A DNA stretch of 59,350 nucleotides from the NCBI GenBank assembly GCA_024638565.1, contig JAHEKC010000007.1, positions 1 to 59,350 on the forward strand, written 5' to 3'. The notes below the pieces were generated by a model. It did not search any database, had not been told where the DNA came from, and saw only the letters and a list, made by a program, of their open reading frames with translations. The translations under genes and the position numbers were made by a program. Source of the stretch: Bacteroidota bacterium. Its GTDB lineage: Bacteria > Bacteroidota > Bacteroidia > AKYH767-A > OLB10. Each line of letters begins with the position of its first letter. Within the stretch, counting starts at the first letter, position 1. Positions 31,338 to 43,266 of this stretch are shown piece by piece.

Positions 31338-33677
31338 ATGAGAAGAACAATTGTGCTGATTAGCCTCTGCTCCGCACTGCTGGCACCCGCCGTGTACGGC
31401 CAGAAACTGCCCGCTGAATGGCGTATCACGCCTGACGGCAGGATGCTCATTCTCGGCGACCAGGACAAGAAGGCCACGCTGTACGACCACCTGATCGTTC
31501 GAGACATCCACCTCTCATTCACGCAGCCGAACTACTGGCAGATCATGCAGGGGAATTACCAGTCGCAGACCAATCTCATGGCCACCATGGTTGTGGATGG
31601 CATCACTTACGACAGCGTGGGTGTCCGGTTTAAAGGCCAGACTTCCTACTCGCAAACGGGCAATGCCCAGAAGAAATCGTTCAACATAGAAACAGACTGG
31701 CTCGTTCCCGGGCAGAAGCTGATGGGCTACGACATCCTGAACCTGCACAACTGCTTCCAGGATGAGTCCTTCATGCGGGAAGTGTTTTTCCAGCACCAGC
31801 TCCGGAATCATATCCCTATCGCCAAGTCGGCATTCACGAAATTGTATATCAACGGCCAGAACTGGGGTGTGTATCCCAACATAGAACAGGTCAGCGGCGA
31901 GTTCCTGAACGAATGGTTCCTCAGCAACGACGGATCGCTGTGGCGTGCCGACCGCCCACCGGGCTCACCCGGCGGTCCCGGCGGTGGCTGGGGCGACGGT
32001 ACGGCGGCACTAAACTATCACGGGCCTGACACCTCCCTCTACCAGCCCTATTATACGCTGAAGCGGTTTACGAAAACGAATCCATGGGATGACCTGGTGA
32101 ACACCTGCGATGTACTCAACAACACGCCGCTGGCCAACCTGCCCCAGACCCTGGCCGGCGTCATGGATATCGACCGGACCCTTTGGGTCCTCGCCGCGGA
32201 GATCCTGTTCTCTGACGACGACAGCTATGTCCACAAGGGAAAGATGGACTACTATGTCTACTACGAACCCGAAACGGGAAGGATGGTCGCGCAGGAATAT
32301 GACGGCAACAGTGTCATGAGTCCGAATTACCAGTACTGGAGCCCGTTCTACCATGAAACAAATCCCAACTACCCCCTGCTGAACCGCCTGTTGGCTATCC
32401 CCGGGCTCCGGCAGCGGTACCTGGCGCATTTGCGCACACTCATCGCGGAAGCATTTGACACCACGACCGCATTTCCGCTTATTGACGGTTACAAGGCGCT
32501 GATCGATACCATGGTGCAGAACGACCCGAAGAAGCTGTACTCCTACAGCCAGTTCGTGAATGAAATAACGGTACTGAAGAACTTTATCACCCTGCGAAAA
32601 GGATTCCTGAATAATAACCCGGAGGTCATGCAGACCGGTCCGTCGATCAGCAACACAGTTTACTATACCAATGGCAACGCCTGGACGGCACCTTCCGATT
32701 CCGATGACGTGGTGGTCAACGCCTCACTGGCCCATACCAGTGGCATCCAGGACGCCCGGCTGTATTACAGCAACGGGCTGGTGGGCAATTTCACCCGGAC
32801 CGATATGTTCGATGACGGGCAGCATGACGATGGGGCGGCAGGCGACGGCGTATACGGGGCTACCATCCCGGGTCATGCCGCCGGAAGCTGGGTGCGGTTC
32901 TACGTGGAAGGTGCCGCGGCCAACAATGCACAAACGGTCACCTATGACCCGCCGGGCGCCGAGCATGACGTATACATATACGTGGTGGCTCCCAAACTGG
33001 CCAACGACACCCATGTGGTCATCAATGAACTGATGGCCTCCAACATTTCAGCCGTCACAGACAATGCCGGTGAGTATGATGACTGGATCGAATTGTACAA
33101 CAACTCCACCAGCCCGGTGGATATCAGCGGCTATTTCCTTACGGATAACACGGTCAACCTGACCAAGTACACCTTTCCGCAGGGCACCGTCCTGCTGCCG
33201 AACGCGTACCTGATCGTGTGGGCAGACGAGGATGCCAGCCAGGGTGCCTTCCATGCCAACTTCAAACTTTCCGCGGCCGGTGAACAGCTTTACCTGCTCA
33301 ATCCCGGCCAGGAGCTGGTGGATTCCATCAGCTGGGGTCAGCAGGTCGCGGACATGGGATTTGCACGTGTCCCCAACGGGGTGGGGAATTTCATCATCCA
33401 GCAGCATACCTATGCCGCCAACAACAACCTGACCTCGGTCCAGGAGCTGGAGCCGGCGGTCACCGACCTGCTTCTCTTTCCCAACCCCGCCAGGGAGGTC
33501 TTGAATATAAAGGCCGTGGGAACGGAACGTGCTGAGCTGACGGTCACCGACATGCCCGGCAGGCTCGTTTACAGGAGTGAGCTGCACGGCGAGGCCCGCA
33601 TTTCACTGGCAGGCTGGAAAGCCGGTATATACCTGGTACGCTGCGGGGCTTTGACGCGGAAACTGGTGGTGCAGTAG
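31338..33677 (+). CDS. CotH kinase family protein with C-terminal lamin-tail domain and T9SS sorting domain
   Basis: CotH: GVRFKGQTSYSQTGNAQKKSFNIETDWLVPGQKLMGYDILNLHNCFQDESFMREV..YINGQNWGVYPNIEQVSGEFL; LTD: HVVINELMASNISAVTDNAGEYDDWIELYNNS; C-terminal LLLFPNPAREVLNIKAVG...AGIYLVRCG. Confidence 0.9.
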   Translation: MRRTIVLISLCSALLAPAVYGQKLPAEWRITPDGRMLILGDQDKKATLYDHLIVRDIHLSFTQPNYWQIMQGNYQSQTNLMATMVVDGITYDSVGVRFKGQTSYSQTGNAQKKSFNIETDWLVPGQKLMGYDILNLHNCFQDESFMREVFFQHQLRNHIPIAKSAFTKLYINGQNWGVYPNIEQVSGEFLNEWFLSNDGSLWRADRPPGSPGGPGGGWGDGTAALNYHGPDTSLYQPYYTLKRFTKTNPWDDLVNTCDVLNNTPLANLPQTLAGVMDIDRTLWVLAAEILFSDDDSYVHKGKMDYYVYYEPETGRMVAQEYDGNSVMSPNYQYWSPFYHETNPNYPLLNRLLAIPGLRQRYLAHLRTLIAEAFDTTTAFPLIDGYKALIDTMVQNDPKKLYSYSQFVNEITVLKNFITLRKGFLNNNPEVMQTGPSISNTVYYTNGNAWTAPSDSDDVVVNASLAHTSGIQDARLYYSNGLVGNFTRTDMFDDGQHDDGAAGDGVYGATIPGHAAGSWVRFYVEGAAANNAQTVTYDPPGAEHDVYIYVVAPKLANDTHVVINELMASNISAVTDNAGEYDDWIELYNNSTSPVDISGYFLTDNTVNLTKYTFPQGTVLLPNAYLIVWADEDASQGAFHANFKLSAAGEQLYLLNPGQELVDSISWGQQVADMGFARVPNGVGNFIIQQHTYAANNNLTSVQELEPAVTDLLLFPNPAREVLNIKAVGTERAELTVTDMPGRLVYRSELHGEARISLAGWKAGIYLVRCGALTRKLVVQ

Positions 33678-33794: not shown

Positions 33795-33867
33795 GCGGAT
33801 GTAGCTCATTTGGTAGAGCGCGACCTTGCCAAGGTCGAGGTGGCCGGTTCGAGCCCGGTCATCCGCT
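33795..33867 (+). tRNA. tRNA-Gly (anticodon GCC)
   Basis: GCGGATG acceptor pairs with CATCCGC; anticodon stem CGACC/GGTCG, loop TTGCCAA; GGTTCGA T-loop. Confidence 0.96.
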
Positions 33868-34077
33868 CGGTTTAAGTTATTGGGTAATCGTTAATTGTTA
33901 TTTGATCGGCATGTCGCCAGGTAACATCAACGAAACTCCGGTAACTTTTTTTTTACCCGTTACTTTAACATCTCCGGTTCCCGGTCCACGCAAACTTTCA
34001 GCTTCTCAACAACTCGATAACTCACTAACTTACCCCCTCAATCTCGAACATTGGATCTCGAAATTTAAACTGGTTAT

Positions 34078-34162
34078 GCCCGGGTGGTGGAACTGGTAGA
34101 CACGCAGGACTTAAAATCCTGTAGCCATTGCGGCTGTGCGGGTTCGACCCCCGCCCCGGGTA
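34078..34162 (+). tRNA. tRNA-Leu (anticodon UAA)
   Basis: GCCCGGG/CCCGGGT acceptor, loop CTTAAAA with anticodon TAA, long variable arm, T-arm GCGGGTTCGACCCCCGC; 85 nt. Confidence 0.96.
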
Positions 34163-34181
34163 CTAAATCAGAGTGAGTGTG

Positions 34182-35352: not shown

Positions 35353-36345
35353 TTAGATAGCCAGGTAGTACATCAGCACCAGGTATATGCATATGATCAC
35401 CACGGAGTCCAGCCCGAACAGCCATACTTTGCGCTGCGGCCTTATCATGATGCCCAGTCCCACGACCGCCGTCATCACCACGGTGGCCATCACCGACTCC
35501 ATGTGTGCCTTACTGATGGCGGCATACAATGAACCGCCTGTATAAAACAGGTCGTCGATACCCAGGATGAGGATATTGAAGATATTGCTCCCCAGCAGGT
35601 TCCCCACCACCATGTCATACGCCATCAGCCGCACGGCGGCAATGGATACGACCAGCTCCGGCAGCGAGGTGGCCGCGGCAAGGAAGAGCGTGCCGAAGAA
35701 GGTATCAGAGATGCCATACCAGGCAGCCAGCTCCTCACCGAAATACGGCAGGAACAACGCCGCCACAAGTACGACAAGTGCATTCAGCCCGTAAACGATC
35801 AGGGAACGCCTCAGCGAAGGCGGCTTCCCGCCGGATATGGCTGTCGTCTCCCGTTCCGGCATAACCTTACCCGACCTGCCGAAACGGTAGATCGCGTAGA
35901 TCGTGGCCAGGTACACCACGAAGATGACGGGCGTGAAAGCACTGACCCAAAAAAAGACAGGAGTCTTTTCCGCCGTAAGGATGGCCACCCCCGAAACCGT
36001 GAGCAGGATCAGGCTGAAAAAGCCAGCCACCACGTGGCTGCGCTCCACCAGGGACGTAAGCGGTTTCCTGATACGGGCGTCGAGCAATGAGAGGATCAGC
36101 AGGTTGAAAACACAGCTCCCGAAAATGTCCCCTGCGGCCAGGTCCGGCGCCTTGACGACCGCCACCGCACTGATGCCATTGACAAGTTCAGGCAAAGAGG
36201 TGATCGATGCCATTAAGATGAGCCCGATCCATGCCTTGCTCAGGCCCGTCAGCTCGGAGATCCGGTTGCCATGGTAGGTCAGCCGGATGCCGCTGACCAC
36301 GATCAGGGCCGTGCATATTATAAAACCTGCCAGTGCCTGCCACAT
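35353..36345 (-). CDS. Sodium/calcium exchanger family protein (CaCA, YrbG-like)
   Basis: Two alpha repeats: GLILMASITSLPELVNGISAV..GDIFGSCVFNLLILSLLD and GTLFLAAATSLPELVVSIAAVR..GNLLGSNIFNILILGIDD. Confidence 0.93.
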   Translation of the reverse strand: MWQALAGFIICTALIVVSGIRLTYHGNRISELTGLSKAWIGLILMASITSLPELVNGISAVAVVKAPDLAAGDIFGSCVFNLLILSLLDARIRKPLTSLVERSHVVAGFFSLILLTVSGVAILTAEKTPVFFWVSAFTPVIFVVYLATIYAIYRFGRSGKVMPERETTAISGGKPPSLRRSLIVYGLNALVVLVAALFLPYFGEELAAWYGISDTFFGTLFLAAATSLPELVVSIAAVRLMAYDMVVGNLLGSNIFNILILGIDDLFYTGGSLYAAISKAHMESVMATVVMTAVVGLGIMIRPQRKVWLFGLDSVVIICIYLVLMYYLAI

Positions 36346-36465
36346 AACTTTATCTCTCCGTTTGCCAATTTACAACTGGCGGCCGTATCTGTTCAATCCG
36401 CTGGGTCAAACCTGCACCGTTTATTCGTTTATCAGCCGGGAAAGGCAATACTTTTCATTTGCCGT

Positions 36466-37134
36466 TTAAAGGCTTATCTCAATATCCACCCCTACCACGT
36501 AATCCGTCACCGGTGCCACTACATTCACTTCCTTGTTGATCATGTAATACAGCCCGAGGGCATAGGTCTTGTTAAACTTATAATCGGCTCCCACGCGATA
36601 CCTGAGATTGTCCACCGTATTGCCCCCGACACCATTGAGCTGGTAATTCCATTCGAACGAAAAATAAGGGCGGTAGGGGCGGTCCATGTCTGCACGTGCC
36701 GTGATTTTACTGCGCAGGTGGCTCTCGGGAGAAAGTGTCTTGCGGTCGCTGCGCGCCTGCCTGTACTGGGACTGGTAGCGCTCACGGAAAATGAAGTCCA
36801 CGTACCGGGTCCGGTATCTGTATGAAACATCGGCATACCACCGTTGCCGGGACTCGTAATAATCATCCAGCTGCTTCTTGCGGATAAACCGGTAGTGCAG
36901 CTCCACATCCACATGCCTGTTTATCTCGTACCCGACGCCGGCATCCGTATATATCGTGCTGATTTCAGATGCATTCTCGTAAAACCGGACATCTTCCGCG
37001 AGGCTCACTGATAATTCCTTTGTCAGGGCCTTGCCCACGGAAATACTCGTCCAGATCCCGAAGTCATTTACCTGCGAAGCGCCCAAAAACGGGAGGCATA
37101 CAAGCAATGCCATTGCACCAGACACTCTATTCAT
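36466..37134 (-). CDS. DUF2490-type outer-membrane beta-barrel protein
   Basis: Signal peptide; DFGIWTSISVGKALTKELSVSLAEDVRFYENASEISTIYTDAGVGYEINRHVDVELHYRFI; alternating beta-strand pattern. Confidence 0.75.
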   Translation of the reverse strand: MNRVSGAMALLVCLPFLGASQVNDFGIWTSISVGKALTKELSVSLAEDVRFYENASEISTIYTDAGVGYEINRHVDVELHYRFIRKKQLDDYYESRQRWYADVSYRYRTRYVDFIFRERYQSQYRQARSDRKTLSPESHLRSKITARADMDRPYRPYFSFEWNYQLNGVGGNTVDNLRYRVGADYKFNKTYALGLYYMINKEVNVVAPVTDYVVGVDIEISL

Positions 37135-37744
37135 AGTAATACACCTGCAGCTGGGCGGAATCCCGCAGAAAATCGACGGTATTGATGTTTACATGATTGA
37201 CCTTCACCCCCAGCCTTTTCTCGAGGTCGTCTATAAGCTCCTGCCTGCGTTCAGGACGGATCAATTCGATCTTCTCATAATTCACAACCTTCGACACCTC
37301 GTTCCTGATGAGCACATTATACTCCATCAGGTAGGTAAAAATCAAAATGATTCCCCCCAGTATGCTGAACTCATCCCAGCTGCCCCTGCTCACGGCCATG
37401 ATCAGCCCGATCGAGATGGACAGGAACAAATAGGTCATATCCTTCATGGAGATGTTCTCCGTCCGGTAGCGAAGCATCGAAAAGACGGCAAAAAGACCGA
37501 AAGCCGCACCGATACTCATTTCCACCTTGTTCAGCAGGTAGGTAACCAGAAAAATGAGAATGTTGAAGATGAAATAGGTGAAGACGTACTCCCTGTTCCT
37601 TCTCGACGGCAGGTAAATCAGCCGCAGCAGCACCCACATGGTCACCAGGTTGATCCCGAGCCGCATGAAGAACTTCGGCGGAAGCCGGTTCAGGAACTCC
37701 ATCGCATTGTTCGTTTCGTTCAGGATCAGTTCAGGCAATAGCAT
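37127..37744 (-). CDS. DUF4956 membrane protein
   Basis: Multi-TM followed by the characteristic GAAFGLFAVFSMLRYRTENISMKDMTYLFLSISIGLIMAV; cytoplasmic C-terminal domain. Confidence 0.85.
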   Translation of the reverse strand: MLLPELILNETNNAMEFLNRLPPKFFMRLGINLVTMWVLLRLIYLPSRRNREYVFTYFIFNILIFLVTYLLNKVEMSIGAAFGLFAVFSMLRYRTENISMKDMTYLFLSISIGLIMAVSRGSWDEFSILGGIILIFTYLMEYNVLIRNEVSKVVNYEKIELIRPERRQELIDDLEKRLGVKVNHVNINTVDFLRDSAQLQVYYYE

Positions 37745-38495
37745 TTTGCTTTAGTTTTTGAATGCGGATCATCCGCGGTTTGAAATTGTTTTGCCGGATT
37801 CCGGCATGAAGCCTGGCCACGCCAAAGCAATACTTACTCAGCGAACCCTTGCGGATATGCCGTTCCCGCAACAGCTCGACGAATTCCGACCTCCGGGCCC
37901 GTTCCTGCTTTATTTCCACGATCACCAGTCCGTCGAGGCCCACCGTTCGTTCGCCGTTCCGGAAAGTAACCTCCCGGTCAATGGTTACCCGCTCCGGACT
38001 GTGCCTGTTGACGATCGTAATGCGCGTGAAGTCGACATGCAACCGGGCTTTAAGCATGGAGGCGTCCATCGGTGTGAGCGAGCGTAACAGCTCGTCTTCC
38101 GGGCCGGCTATATATTCCATGTTTCGTGGCACCTTGATCCGGTTCTTAACGGTTCGCCCCTTATTATTCTTGAACTTGATCTCGAAAAAACTGATCCCGG
38201 ATTCCACGTAGGTCCGGTACCTGATCTTGAAACGGTTCAGCTTGCCGCACTGGTGCTGGTGGTACAGGCGGAGGTCCGGTGTATCGAAATACACGGAGGT
38301 ATAATGGATCATCCTGGCCCCGCTGACCTCCAGCGCACGGTACGACGGAAGCAAAGCCTCGAAAAGCCCCGGCAGCAGGTTCTCATGAAATACATACTTG
38401 GTATCGGTACGATCCATCAACCGGACGCTATCCATCTCTTTCAGCGTGATTGGATCGAAACGGGCCACGACCTCTGAAACAGATGCGGCTGACAT
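37731..38495 (-). CDS. VTC-domain (triphosphate-tunnel) polyphosphate polymerase-like protein
   Basis: Preferred start MSAASVSEVV at 38495. Motifs LMDRTDTKYVF, YTSVYFDTPDLRLYHQHQCGKLNRFKIRYRTY, FFEIKFKNNKGRTVKNRI, VTIDREVTF, IVEIKQE, SKYCFG. Confidence 0.88.
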   Translation of the reverse strand: MSAASVSEVVARFDPITLKEMDSVRLMDRTDTKYVFHENLLPGLFEALLPSYRALEVSGARMIHYTSVYFDTPDLRLYHQHQCGKLNRFKIRYRTYVESGISFFEIKFKNNKGRTVKNRIKVPRNMEYIAGPEDELLRSLTPMDASMLKARLHVDFTRITIVNRHSPERVTIDREVTFRNGERTVGLDGLVIVEIKQERARRSEFVELLRERHIRKGSLSKYCFGVARLHAGIRQNNFKPRMIRIQKLKQNAIA

Positions 38496-38499
38496 GGGA

Positions 38500-38898
38500 T
38501 CAGTTGCGCTTGATGATGAATGTTCCGGCATCCACCACCTGGTCATTGCCGGTGATCTCCACGTTGTGGATCACGGGAATCTTGCCCACGGTATCCGACA
38601 GCGTGGTATCACCTGAATAAACATACACCCGGTAGTTGCCTTTTCGCAGGTACTTGAACTCAAAGCGACCGTCAGGGCTTGTCCACAACCGGTCGCCATA
38701 GCTGATATCGTCGCCGTAGATGATGAAAACCTCTTCGTCAGCACCGTCATGCTCCCCGAGCACCTGCGTGTAGAAGGCATTGTACTGGACTACTTTCACG
38801 TACCCGGTGATGGAGGAGCTCCCCCCCTCACCCGGCCCTTTCTTGCAGGAAACGAGTATAACAGCCAGCAGGAATACAAAAGGAATACTTCTGATCAT
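38500..38898 (-). CDS. Small lipoprotein with Ig/carboxypeptidase-regulatory-like fold
   Basis: MIRSIPFVFLLAVILVSCKKGPGEG lipobox; SPDGRFEFKYLRKGNYRVYVYSGDT. Confidence 0.7.
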   Translation of the reverse strand: MIRSIPFVFLLAVILVSCKKGPGEGGSSSITGYVKVVQYNAFYTQVLGEHDGADEEVFIIYGDDISYGDRLWTSPDGRFEFKYLRKGNYRVYVYSGDTTLSDTVGKIPVIHNVEITGNDQVVDAGTFIIKRN

Positions 38899-38958
38899 AA
38901 GTCTTTGACCATTTAGAATGCGCGTGGATTAATCGCCGCGGTACGGCAAACCAAGGCC

Positions 38959-41496
38959 TTATCGTTCCGGAGCGTATACCAGCCTGACGGATTTGCGATG
39001 TTTACCCGCCCGCAGCTCCAGTAAGTACACGCCGCCTGCAAGCCCGCTTCCGGAGAGGTTCAGGTTGACGGAGTGGTTGCCCGGCATGGTGACACCGCCT
39101 GGCGCGGCAAGCTGCATGATCTCCGCACCCATGAGGTTATAGAGCCTGATCGATACAGGCATGGCTTCCGCAAGACTGAAGTGGATGGTGGTTTCGTCGC
39201 TGAACAGGTTCGGGCTGGCGCTCACCAATGGACCGTCCAGCGGCAGCAGTTCCGGCACGCCCGTGGTCAGGAAGTGGGCCACGATGGTATCCGTAGATCC
39301 CAGGCTGACAGCCGCCTGGATGGAAGTGGCTGAAGGGTTAAAGGCATGAGCACCGGAGGTCCACTGGGAGAACTGGTTTCCGCCCGTGGGCACTGCTTCC
39401 AGTTTCGTATCAATCCCACTGAAATACTGTCCTGTCCAGGGCAGGTTCTGCAGTGACAGCGAGTTGAGGTTTGCATATCCCGCTCCTTTCGGTGCCGCCT
39501 CAATGGTGACCTGGTGCAGGGCGCCCAGGTTGTAGCAGTTCTGCCAGCCGGGAATGAGGGTTGTGCAGCGCGCCACGATAAAGGCACGCAGGTCGGCTAC
39601 ATTCTGGACCCACTGGGCATAGGTGCCACCCCACCGGGTGCTGTGCCAGGTCATCTCCGGGTCTATTACGGCCACAGTACTGTCGAACTGCGCCAGCATG
39701 TTGTCGCACCTGAACGTGGTATTCCAAAGGTCTAGTTGTCGTGCAATGTAGAACTGGTTGAAATCCGGGTTTTGCCTGAGCGCCAGCAACACGCCGATAT
39801 GGTCATCGGGATCCGAATTGCCATTGAGGGTTTCCGGATCGCACGGGCTTGCCGTGGGTGTCGTGTTCGGGATACCCGTGTAGTTGATGTAGTGGCCCCA
39901 GGTGGCATCGTTATCCCAGAGCTGGTAGCCCCATTTCAGGTGGGTACCGGTACTGTCGAGCCCGCGCCACCAGCAGACATTCCAGTTCAGCCAGTCGGAA
40001 CAAACGGAGAACATATTGGCAAGCACATAGTCTGTGAGGCTTGCCACGTCCAGACGGTCGTAAACGTATTGGTAGCTTGCAGGGTTCGCCATGCTGTTAC
40101 CCATGATGTAGTTGTACAGGTTCAGCCAGTCTGTATTGGCTGCCGCCCCGCCATACTCGGACCATTTGTTGCCCCATCGCTTGAGCATGTACAAATTGTA
40201 CTTGTCCTGCCCGTAATAAAACTTGGTGAGGTCATGGTTATCGGGGTTGTCGCGAATATCGTACACCCCCCAGTAGATGTTGTTCAGGTATACGATGGCC
40301 TTTGAGCCTCTCCGGACTTCCATGTTCATTCCGCCGGAAAGCACCAGGTTATGCAGGTAGGCATCCCGGACATGCGCGCTCCCGCTGTTGGCGGGCTTGA
40401 AGTCGGCCGGGAAGTTGTCGTCACCGGCCGCGCGAAGCATCACCCGCTGGAAGTTATCCATGGTGGTGGTACTGAAGAGCGGGTGTTCGACCGAATGGTT
40501 GTACCCCATCTCGTCCCTCGAGATGAAGTCGAGGCTGCGCTGGCTCAGGGCCCAGGAATCCTGCCCGTGACGGTTGAACTCACCGTATGTATTGGACTTA
40601 CGTACCCCGGAGGTATCAAACAGTTCGAATGTCCCGTGCGGCTCCAGGTTGCCGTTACCGTTGGCAAGCGCATCCAGACTGTTGCCTGCGATCGAAACCA
40701 CCGGCAGGGTATGTGTCTGCCCAATGAAATAGGTATGGAACTCGATCCTGCTGGGAAGGATGGATGGGTCGGACGAATAGGTGATGGCTTTTAATACGGT
40801 AGTGTTCGCAATGGAAAGAGGGCCGGTATATAAAGGGGAGGTGATGGTAGGCCGTGTGCCATCTATGGTATAGCGAATATCGGACGCCGGCTCTGTGTTG
40901 GTGATGATCACGGTGATGCCCGTGGGATAGAACCCGGCTACCATGCTGTAGTCGGGCCTGTCTGCATACCCGGCATAAGGGGTACCGGTATCATTGGTGG
41001 CCCCGAAGGTGGGACTTACGAAAATGGCCCATGTGGGCGAACCGTCTTTCACACGACCCCGGGAGTGGCCCAGGTGGGTGTTGGGCGACATGTAGGTGTA
41101 ATCAATAATATTCATGGAGGCGTCTGACAGCATCACGTATTCACCGTTGTTCTTGGTCTGTGTCAGATTAAAGTTGGTATGGTAATGGCCGCCCGCCACT
41201 TCGTTTCGGCCATCGCACCATACGATAAGGTACCCTCCTGCGGGGATGGTCGTGCCGGCGGGAAACTGCCAGCGTGTCAGGTTGAGCGAATCGTCGCTCA
41301 GGTAATACCCGCCGATGTTGGCCCCCGTGGCGCCCATGTTGTGAAGTTCCACCCAGTCGCCGAAGTCACTGTGGTTATCCACGAACTGGTCGAGGTTGGA
41401 ACATGAGTACTCGTTGATGACGACCTGCGCCCGCGCGCCGGCCCATATGCTCATACATACTAAAAAAAGGATCGTTTTCCTGGAAATCATTTTCAT
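38959..41496 (-). CDS. CotH kinase family protein with N-terminal lamin-tail domain, chitobiase-C-like segment and T9SS sorting domain
   Basis: LTD VVINEYSCSNLDQFVDNHSDFGDWVELHNMG; SDIRYTIDGTRPTITSPLYTGPLSI; CotH KWGYQLWDNDATWGHYINY; C-terminal SASPNLFSDETTIHFSL...AGGVYLLELRAGKHRKSVRLVY. Confidence 0.9.
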   Translation of the reverse strand: MKMISRKTILFLVCMSIWAGARAQVVINEYSCSNLDQFVDNHSDFGDWVELHNMGATGANIGGYYLSDDSLNLTRWQFPAGTTIPAGGYLIVWCDGRNEVAGGHYHTNFNLTQTKNNGEYVMLSDASMNIIDYTYMSPNTHLGHSRGRVKDGSPTWAIFVSPTFGATNDTGTPYAGYADRPDYSMVAGFYPTGITVIITNTEPASDIRYTIDGTRPTITSPLYTGPLSIANTTVLKAITYSSDPSILPSRIEFHTYFIGQTHTLPVVSIAGNSLDALANGNGNLEPHGTFELFDTSGVRKSNTYGEFNRHGQDSWALSQRSLDFISRDEMGYNHSVEHPLFSTTTMDNFQRVMLRAAGDDNFPADFKPANSGSAHVRDAYLHNLVLSGGMNMEVRRGSKAIVYLNNIYWGVYDIRDNPDNHDLTKFYYGQDKYNLYMLKRWGNKWSEYGGAAANTDWLNLYNYIMGNSMANPASYQYVYDRLDVASLTDYVLANMFSVCSDWLNWNVCWWRGLDSTGTHLKWGYQLWDNDATWGHYINYTGIPNTTPTASPCDPETLNGNSDPDDHIGVLLALRQNPDFNQFYIARQLDLWNTTFRCDNMLAQFDSTVAVIDPEMTWHSTRWGGTYAQWVQNVADLRAFIVARCTTLIPGWQNCYNLGALHQVTIEAAPKGAGYANLNSLSLQNLPWTGQYFSGIDTKLEAVPTGGNQFSQWTSGAHAFNPSATSIQAAVSLGSTDTIVAHFLTTGVPELLPLDGPLVSASPNLFSDETTIHFSLAEAMPVSIRLYNLMGAEIMQLAAPGGVTMPGNHSVNLNLSGSGLAGGVYLLELRAGKHRKSVRLVYAPER

Positions 41497-41663
41497 GGTA
41501 GTTGGAAATTAGGGTTTGCCGGTTACAAATAGATCACATACCGTTCATGCAAAGTAAACATAAAAAAACAATGCAACCGTAAAGCACGGTCAACCATAAG
41601 AGGCTGATGATCAGTCTCAAAGACAGGCAAGCTTCCCCGGGAAACGCTTCCGGCTAACGCCCC

Positions 41664-43124
41664 TTATTGTCGTTCGTAGGCTCCCAGGTCGGGATCTGAG
41701 GTACGGTCCCTGCCCAGGAAATCCTCCATTGTTTCCGGGACCAGCCATGCCGGATCGGCAATATCGAGCGCCGGCGAACCGGCATTCAGGCGGAAATCGT
41801 TGTCTCCCGTTGCCTTGAAAAGCGGGTCGCTGTTCGTGAGGATATCCTCGAAATGGTTGATATCAGTGACCGGTGTGGTACCATCCACTTTCACCAGGCA
41901 ATCGTAAAAGTTATGTGCAGATGCGGCAGATGCTTCAAAGTCCAGTTCAAGTTCGTTGTCGGCCGTTCCGTAGATAATGCAATTCCGGAACGTGGCCTTA
42001 ACGAGGTCGTTGCCCATGGTACCGGTAGTGCTGTTGTAAAAGTTGTTGATGTACACAACCGGTGCGCTGCGCTGGGCCGGGAAGTAATTGGCAAACGTAC
42101 ATTGGTTAAACTCGTACGAACCGCCGATTGTCAGTGCCATGTTATTGGATCCGCAGTTGCCGACAACCATGTTGTATCCCGTAACTGTATAGTCACGTGC
42201 CAGCATTCCTATGCCACTGGCATTTTTCACGATCGTATTCCTGATCTCGAGGGTCGCCTGGTTTTGGCCGTAGGGAGAAAGGAAGTTCTCGGGCTGGAGC
42301 CCGATGAATGAATTTTTAATTACGGCATTCCGGATGAGGTGCTGGTTGCCTACCCCCCCTTCGTTGATCCATATCCGGTCCCATTGCCCGGGAACGTTGT
42401 CATAAGCTGGTTCCAGCCGCGTACCCTGGAACGTAACGGGATGCTCCACGCTGCCCAGGACCTCCAGCGTGCCATACCGGTATACCCAAAGCCCGGCGCC
42501 CTGGAAGAAGTGGATCCGCGTGCCTTCATGGATCCGGAGTGTATAGCAGGAGTCGACCACCGCATAACCATATACCACGTGCGGCAGGATACTGTCCCAC
42601 TCTATCACGCTGCACGGCGGCAGGGTGTCGCCGTCTATCACGGAATACGGCAGGCCGCCGAAACTGCGGTCCGGGATATGAAAGATGGCATTCTGCCCGA
42701 ATGCCAGCAGGTCCACATCCTGGACCGATCCTTCGCTTTCAAATAGGATGGAGTCTGTCACCAGGAATGGCGTGGCGGCGTTATTGGGATCGATGGTCAC
42801 CTCGATAAAAATCCACAGGCTGTCTTTCGGGCCTATCACCACGTCGTGAACCGTGTGTCCGGGTACGCCATCCACGTTCATCCTGTACGAAGATGCAGCG
42901 CCACGTGCCAGCCGGATGGTGGAGATCCTGACCGCTGAACCCTGGTTGTTGTATACCAGGAGGAATTCCGTGGTGGATCCCAGGGTGGTGAATACGGTAT
43001 CAAACAGGATCGTATCCTCAGAAAACTCCAGGTTGACCGCATTCCCGGTAAGCACATCATCCTCCTTTTTACAGGAGCCGGCGAGCAATGCCAGGGCGAA
43101 GGCTGCGGGTATCCACTTTCTCAT
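41664..43124 (-). CDS. Right-handed beta-helix lipoprotein
   Basis: Start MRKWIPAAFALALLAGSCKKEDD (lipobox); FDTVFTTLGSTTEFLLVYNNQGSAVRISTIRLARG; later IRNAVIKNSFIGLQPEN...LEIRNTIVKNASGIGMLARDYTVTGYNMVVGNCGSNNMAL. Confidence 0.72.
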   Translation of the reverse strand: MRKWIPAAFALALLAGSCKKEDDVLTGNAVNLEFSEDTILFDTVFTTLGSTTEFLLVYNNQGSAVRISTIRLARGAASSYRMNVDGVPGHTVHDVVIGPKDSLWIFIEVTIDPNNAATPFLVTDSILFESEGSVQDVDLLAFGQNAIFHIPDRSFGGLPYSVIDGDTLPPCSVIEWDSILPHVVYGYAVVDSCYTLRIHEGTRIHFFQGAGLWVYRYGTLEVLGSVEHPVTFQGTRLEPAYDNVPGQWDRIWINEGGVGNQHLIRNAVIKNSFIGLQPENFLSPYGQNQATLEIRNTIVKNASGIGMLARDYTVTGYNMVVGNCGSNNMALTIGGSYEFNQCTFANYFPAQRSAPVVYINNFYNSTTGTMGNDLVKATFRNCIIYGTADNELELDFEASAASAHNFYDCLVKVDGTTPVTDINHFEDILTNSDPLFKATGDNDFRLNAGSPALDIADPAWLVPETMEDFLGRDRTSDPDLGAYERQ

Positions 43125-43131
43125 GAACGGG

Positions 43132-43139
43132 CAAAGATA
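43132..43139 (-). promoter_or_regulatory. Candidate -7 element (TATCTTTG) for the beta-helix lipoprotein gene
   Basis: Perfect TAnnTTTG match on minus immediately upstream of ATG 43124; weak -33. Confidence 0.35.
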
Positions 43140-43266
43140 GAAACTGCAATTCCCCGGATTTAGTATCAATGCAGATCGCGCGGTTACCCCTGGGAAGGCC
43201 GTGCGCGTTCTTTTCCTGATACTTCAAAACCAGGCTTTTCCGCAATTTTCTTTTTTTATTACGGGG

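Follow-up and report, generated by a model that had tools for sequence, protein, structure and literature searches.

In Streptococcus, Clostridium and Bifidobacterium, genes for a CotH protein, a polyphosphate polymerase and a DUF4956 protein are contiguous with Pel operons (PMC7112168), and in Streptococcus intermedius deletion of the CotH or the DUF4956 gene alters both the amount of Pel and aggregation (PMC12345266). The authors of the latter paper, published in 2025, report having met the arrangement nowhere but in Pel loci (PMC12345266). Locus NELoc-2 of Clostridium perfringens has been described as carrying VTC, “tubulin”, CotH and glycosyltransferase genes (PMC2879425), and by position and size the “tubulin” genes between VTC and CotH are probably DUF4956 genes. 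Apart from these three reports, our literature search, which did not extend to subscription papers or preprints, turned up no functional study of the trio. Here we describe a 59,350-nucleotide stretch (the window) from a Bacteroidota bacterium, contig JAHEKC010000007.1 of assembly GCA_024638565.1, in which five minus-strand genes running from 41496 to 36466 encode, in order, a CotH protein, a lipoprotein, a VTC protein, a DUF4956 protein and a DUF2490 protein. A first-pass annotation had linked CotH, VTC and DUF4956 to no defined pathway, whereas the trio is already in print as a Gram-positive Pel accessory with partial mutant data (PMC7112168, PMC12345266). We find that the five genes form a conserved operon and that, in Bacteroidota, genomes with VTC are strictly associated with CotH.

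We searched 118 genomes drawn from across the Bacteroidota for VTC, DUF4956 and CotH, together with 61 relatives from the window's family, order and class (genomes G000 and G041 belong to both samples). Among the 118 genomes, DUF4956 lies directly downstream of nearly every complete VTC match, and the Bacteroidota loci take two forms: type A, with a divergent DUF4956, and type B, that of the window, in which DUF4956 matches strongly and DUF2490 is usually present. Two sets of loci were compared, 37 of type B and 80 named loci (including Runella, Emticicia, Dyadobacter and Larkinella), some contigs of metagenome-assembled genomes being in both. The full order in many relatives is CotH, lipoprotein, a repeat protein of ~190 amino acids (not always present), VTC, DUF4956 and DUF2490. 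DUF2490 is present in 32 of the 37 type-B loci, the lipoprotein in 29 and a CotH gene within 5 kb in 19 (16 co-directional); among the 80 named loci, 78 have VTC, 73 DUF2490 and 40 CotH (38 co-directional). The gene order is thus kept across other genomes, and the operon that had been proposed from the window alone is real. In all 12 type-A loci compared, an HlyD-like protein of ~355 amino acids stands just before VTC, often after CotH genes; because type A has this periplasmic adaptor-like protein instead, parts suited to crossing the envelope recur in both forms. Three type-A loci (L083, L091 and L137) have CotH or other genes between VTC and DUF4956, in the order DUF4956-CotH-VTC.

CotH is present in 23/23 VTC genomes versus 24/95 genomes without VTC in the phylum-wide sample (p = 9e-12; 2e-6 at genus level) and in 34/34 versus 6/27 among the 61 relatives (p = 2e-11; 6e-9 at genus level), values that have to be read with the reservation that shared ancestry inflates them and that collapsing to genera ignores deeper kinship. 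Chance placement would put a CotH gene within 5 kb in about 0.6 of the 29 loci modelled, so that linkage is ~30 times that expected by chance. Co-occurrence, on which the first-pass annotation had staked its proposal, is therefore above background in both genome content and gene position. CotH also adjoins the VTC-DUF4956 pair in Spirosomaceae and in Bacillota. Beyond Pel loci we found the trio in both types of Bacteroidota locus and on plasmids of Planococcus (L220) and Pseudobutyrivibrio (L222), the stretches read of the two plasmid loci containing no annotated pel genes. The phylum-wide sample, in which the window alone had CotH beside a type-B operon, had raised the idea that this adjacency is incidental, which closer sampling reversed.

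Several features of genome context vary among the relatives. In genus g68, CotH is convergent to the operon. In several families the type-B operon is itself convergent to genes with the sizes and order of ispF-porV-porU (L105 3505-9253, L104, L112, L114, L115, L117, L119, L145, L158 and L184); NCBIfam confirmation of PorU, PorV and IspF is limited to L105, and the window has no such neighbourhood. In G041, VTC-DUF4956 stands alone on contig C10, and DUF2490 and CotH adjoin each other elsewhere (C7:26316-29048 and C2:55396-58411), as if the module had been split.

The window's genome (3.02 Mb, 97% complete) has a single VTC gene. All five open reading frames lie on the minus strand where they were first placed, and Pfam confirmed the families of CotH, VTC, DUF4956 and DUF2490 (Table 1). 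A gap of 60 bp separates the CotH stop codon from the lipoprotein ATG, and, as originally claimed, VTC overlaps DUF4956 by 14 bp and DUF4956 overlaps DUF2490 by 8 bp. As in the first-pass annotation, we prefer the VTC start at 38495 to the mechanically called start at 38546, because the ATG at 38495 lies 4 bp after the lipoprotein TGA. No terminator-like or promoter-like match was found on the operon strand between CotH and VTC, and across 36000-42000 such matches are near the shuffle background.

Table 1. The operon and a second CotH gene in the window
Feature	Coordinates	Strand	Evidence
CotH kinase-fold exported protein, 845 aa	38959..41496	-	Signal peptide, LTD, CHB_HEX and CotH domains, putative C-terminal tail of type IX secretion system (T9SS) type; Pfam CotH 2e-21
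Small lipoprotein, 132 aa	38500..38898	-	LVSC lipobox then GEGG; carboxypeptidase-regulatory/fn3-like domain
VTC-domain triphosphate-tunnel protein, 254 aa, predicted cytosolic polyphosphate polymerase	37731..38495	-	Pfam VTC 3.2e-30; Vtc4 tunnel residues kept
DUF4956 predicted inner-membrane protein	37127..37744	-	Pfam 1.6e-53; 5 transmembrane helices and C-terminal ACT-like domain; remote MgtC relative
DUF2490 predicted outer-membrane beta-barrel, Arg/Lys-rich lumen	36466..37134	-	Pfam 4.3e-20; AlphaFold2; Foldseek
Second CotH protein (CotH, Ig-like, LTD, T9SS tail)	31338..33677	+	Pfam CotH 9e-44; T9SS tail 34.3 bits

Two flanking genes, an Na/Ca exchanger gene (35353-36345) and a beta-helix protein gene (41664-43169), were rejected as operon members because no homologue of either recurs beside the operon in relatives. 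The product of 41664-43169, which lies upstream of CotH in the same direction, is lipoprotein-like (weak DUF5123, choice-of-anchor Q). The second CotH gene is on the opposite strand, 2.8 kb past the 3' end of the operon; it is possibly a second client of the module, its membership being uncertain. Genes for tRNA-Gly and tRNA-Leu lie at 33795-34163, also beyond that end.

The VTC domain scores 105.9 bits against a curated Pfam cut-off of 23, and the VTC profile matches yeast Vtc4 with an E value of 1.5e-17. All 14 mapped Vtc4 tunnel positions, comprising basic tunnel residues, the metal-binding Glu and the catalytic Lys, are kept: in the alignment K33, R92, R94, E105, K107, K117 and R119 of the window protein correspond to Vtc4 K200, R264, R266, E279, K281, K294 and R296, and R158, R169, D173, E194, K196, S220 and K221 to R361, R373, D377, E426, K428, S457 and K458. 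Thirteen of these residues are invariant across 34 VTC homologues, S220 being the exception, and the loss of tunnel residues that would have spoken against the original proposal is not seen. Triphosphate tunnel metalloenzyme (TTM) hydrolases have four glutamates at sites that are basic in Vtc4 (PMC4641920); by our own assignment of those glutamates to residues of the window protein, its E-x-K motif (E194/K196) is polymerase-like in sequence where TTM hydrolases have Glu, and this is the clearest of the four positions. The R264A/R266A/E426N mutant of Vtc4 is inactive, and synthesis by the yeast complex is tied to translocation through the membrane (PMC9911596), so such coupling has precedent in the same enzyme fold. 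Pfam detected neither an SPX domain nor a membrane domain in the window protein, which consists of the VTC domain alone. Among the 61 relatives, PPK1 shows no association with VTC (25/34 genomes with VTC versus 20/27 without), and VTC is therefore not simply the genome's polyphosphate kinase. The window's own genome gave no match to PPK1, which had prompted the idea that VTC replaces it; this was ruled out by the 25 of 34 VTC genomes that have both.

An AlphaFold2 model of DUF4956 (mean predicted local distance difference test score, pLDDT, 87.6) has five membrane helices followed by a C-terminal beta-alpha-beta-beta, ACT-like domain; this topology, together with adjacency to VTC in nearly all loci, upholds the earlier suggestion that DUF4956 is the inner-membrane partner of VTC. 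The window's DUF4956 gave no match to the MgtC Pfam domain, and on that ground its membership of the MgtC family was rejected. A type-A relative does match MgtC at 1.4e-4 (22.6 bits, under the cut-off of 31.4), and type-A and type-B DUF4956 are homologous to each other. In several Bacteroidota, DUF4956 without VTC precedes HlyD-like and TolC/OEP-like genes (L096 9406-12937; L138 9975-12921; L221), neighbours which suggest that DUF4956 has an export role apart from VTC. In L116 (G166:C136), DUF4956 is within a 516-residue open frame close to VTC, possibly a fusion.

The profile of the neighbouring CotH proteins matches the solved Bacillus cereus CotH structure 5jd9 at 2.7e-29, and both catalytic/metal-binding aspartates are kept, SDWLNWN and WDNDATWG aligning with QNFDGFVHN and WDYDATWG of 5jd9; equating D228 and D251 of Bacillus subtilis CotH with these two motifs is our assignment. 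The alignment thus agrees with the earlier view of a kinase-type protein. For Por_Secre_tail the window CotH scores 20.8 bits against a cut-off of 23, and the close relative in L111 scores 24.6, that in L107 47.4. The CotH slot of the operon is filled by at least two domain orders, LTD-CHB-CotH and CotH-Ig-LTD; the architecture of the window's second CotH fills it in L108 and L128, and short CotHs of ~480-520 amino acids fill it in Spirosomaceae. Because the slot holds such varied architectures, these observations suggest that some CotH, not one particular orthologue, is needed.

The AlphaFold2 model of DUF2490 (pLDDT 90.2) is an 11-strand barrel whose Foldseek matches at E < 1e-3 are membrane beta-barrels. 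With strand parity assigned by hydropathy, eleven lumen positions are at least 70% Arg/Lys versus four that are at least 70% Asp/Glu; R50, R82, R98, R117, R141, K143 and R178 are conserved in the lumen. DUF2490 is listed as a putative porin of Transporter Classification family 1.B.81, function not established (PMC4827864), and the same literature search yielded no functional study of it. Because the family is broad (42/118 Bacteroidota genomes), only one branch of it belongs to the operon. The only domain match of the lipoprotein is fn3_3 (7.7e-4, under the Pfam cut-off). The ~190-amino-acid protein whose gene separates those of the lipoprotein and VTC in most relatives (L105 11312-11875, L109 3092-3673, L114 11042-11611), and which is missing from the window, is exported and has YD/RHS- or MORN-like repeats, no family scoring above its cut-off.

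The reading of the operon that we tentatively favor, and that may well be wrong, is of a polyphosphate module that spans the envelope in the service of an exported CotH kinase. Judging from its conserved residues, the cytosolic VTC protein would polymerize polyphosphate from ATP through its tunnel, and the chain would pass to DUF4956, MgtC-like and with its ACT-like domain in the cytosol, which would export it, gate VTC or do both. From there the route might lead across the outer membrane by way of the lipoprotein and the DUF2490 barrel with its basic lining, and CotH, presumably exported via the type IX system, would be a surface kinase whose substrates are secreted or outer-membrane proteins. 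In the weakest step, the exported phosphate polymer would be either the phosphoryl source of CotH or a matrix that CotH organizes. A broader proposal, which we consider unlikely, is that polyphosphate delivered through the membrane by VTC and DUF4956 is the phosphoryl donor of extracytoplasmic CotH kinases in general, a route for bacterial surface phosphorylation that needs no external ATP and to which Bacteroidota have added a dedicated outer-membrane exit.

Several points weigh against the module, besides the kinship that inflates the association. CotH uses ATP in vitro (PMC7821199). No demonstrated activity for a bacterial VTC protein of this group was found in the literature. For the S. 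intermedius VTC mutant (SIR_1593) the published account mentions neither defective aggregation nor a changed amount of Pel (PMC12345266), and since an aggregation defect is reported for the CotH and DUF4956 mutants, the VTC product may be dispensable for CotH function in that organism. Foldseek returned no match at E <= 1e-3 for the DUF4956 model, the membrane part of which resembles no solved structure, and the basic lumen of DUF2490 could carry other anions. Lastly, about half of the loci lack a nearby CotH (18 of the 37 type-B loci have none within 5 kb), and the control genome of Bacteroides ihuae has VTC and DUF4956 and no CotH match. These last findings, with the convergent CotH of genus g68, are what would be expected if CotH were an incidental T9SS cargo gene and the functional unit only lipoprotein-VTC-DUF4956-DUF2490. 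Against this stand the presence of CotH in every VTC genome of the two samples, its linkage far above chance and its place beside the pair in Spirosomaceae and Bacillota, and we regard this explanation as very unlikely, the least probable of those considered.

Of the other explanations, one casts VTC as a triphosphate-tunnel enzyme with a regulatory or hydrolytic task and DUF4956 as an MgtC-like regulator of phosphate or Mg homeostasis; the operon would answer phosphate or metal stress, with CotH as one co-regulated surface protein. The remote relationship of DUF4956 to MgtC and its ACT-like domain agree with this, as do the effect of MgtC on phosphate physiology (PMC12345266) and the listing of BT3498-99 (DUF4956-DUF2490) in the iron stimulon of Bacteroides thetaiotaomicron (PMC10434189); K196 (Vtc4 K428) where TTM hydrolases have Glu (PMC4641920), the retention of every mapped tunnel residue and the tight dependence of VTC on CotH in genome content do not, and we think it unlikely. 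Hardly different in probability, though a shade lower, is an exopolysaccharide accessory role like that proposed for Gram-positive Pel loci: the trio would modify or regulate how a surface polysaccharide is made or secreted, with polyphosphate of secondary importance. The contiguity with Pel operons (PMC7112168), the changed amount of Pel in the deletion mutants (PMC12345266) and the glycosyltransferases beside the trio in L220 and L222 all point that way; yet relatives of those glycosyltransferases are almost absent from Bacteroidota neighborhoods and have no constant position there, the constant partners being instead DUF2490, the lipoprotein and the repeat protein. PelG was not found in the window's own genome; on this and on the lack of a recurring glycosyltransferase, an association with Pel itself was rejected. 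Finally, polyphosphate might be exported as an end product (a surface polyanion, metal chelator or phosphate reserve), CotH only shaping the surface proteins that receive it. This uses the same parts as the module that we favor, and the company that DUF4956 keeps with HlyD/TolC-like proteins apart from VTC points to export; by itself, however, it does not explain why VTC genomes always have CotH, and we consider it improbable.

The operon bears on how secreted kinases come by their phosphoryl groups beyond the cytoplasm; for CotH itself the source of ATP has been called an unanswered question (PMC7821199). Because of the strict genomic association with CotH in Bacteroidota, echoed in Bacillota, the VTC-type polymerase and its membrane partner are two concrete candidates for the phosphoryl supply of CotH, testable with five genes. 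DUF4956 and one branch of DUF2490 gain a proposed role, and, contrary to the published statement, the trio also occurs away from Pel loci.

Compared with the Pel-locus trio of S. intermedius (SIR_1594-1592), in which the same three families are adjacent, CotH is predicted to be secreted and DUF4956 has MgtC-like transmembrane and ACT parts, the window adds an outer-membrane barrel, a lipoprotein and a CotH with a putative T9SS-type tail in a genome without PelG, and its DUF4956 and VTC fall in a separate branch, type B, found in this analysis only in Bacteroidota. NELoc-2 and the Planococcus plasmid locus L220 likewise have VTC, DUF4956 and CotH in a row (DUF4956 of NELoc-2 being the probable one above), but with a HEAT-repeat protein and a glycosyltransferase and no outer-membrane parts. 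The tunnel domain is homologous to that of the yeast VTC complex (Vtc4, 3g3q/8i6v) and has the same tunnel residues; it lacks SPX and an in-chain membrane domain, the separate DUF4956 protein being the membrane partner. The kinase domain is homologous to that of the Bacillus spore-coat kinase CotH (5jd9), with both catalytic aspartates aligned, whereas the window CotH is exported and multidomain with a putative T9SS-type tail, and its host is not known to form spores. The DUF2490 barrel resembles the 12-strand anion porins KdgM and NanC in size and in its basic lumen (Foldseek TM-score 0.57 by target length), with no sequence homology shown. The operon of the window is thus an outer-membrane-equipped form of a known, unexplained trio, without PelG or a recurring glycosyltransferase.

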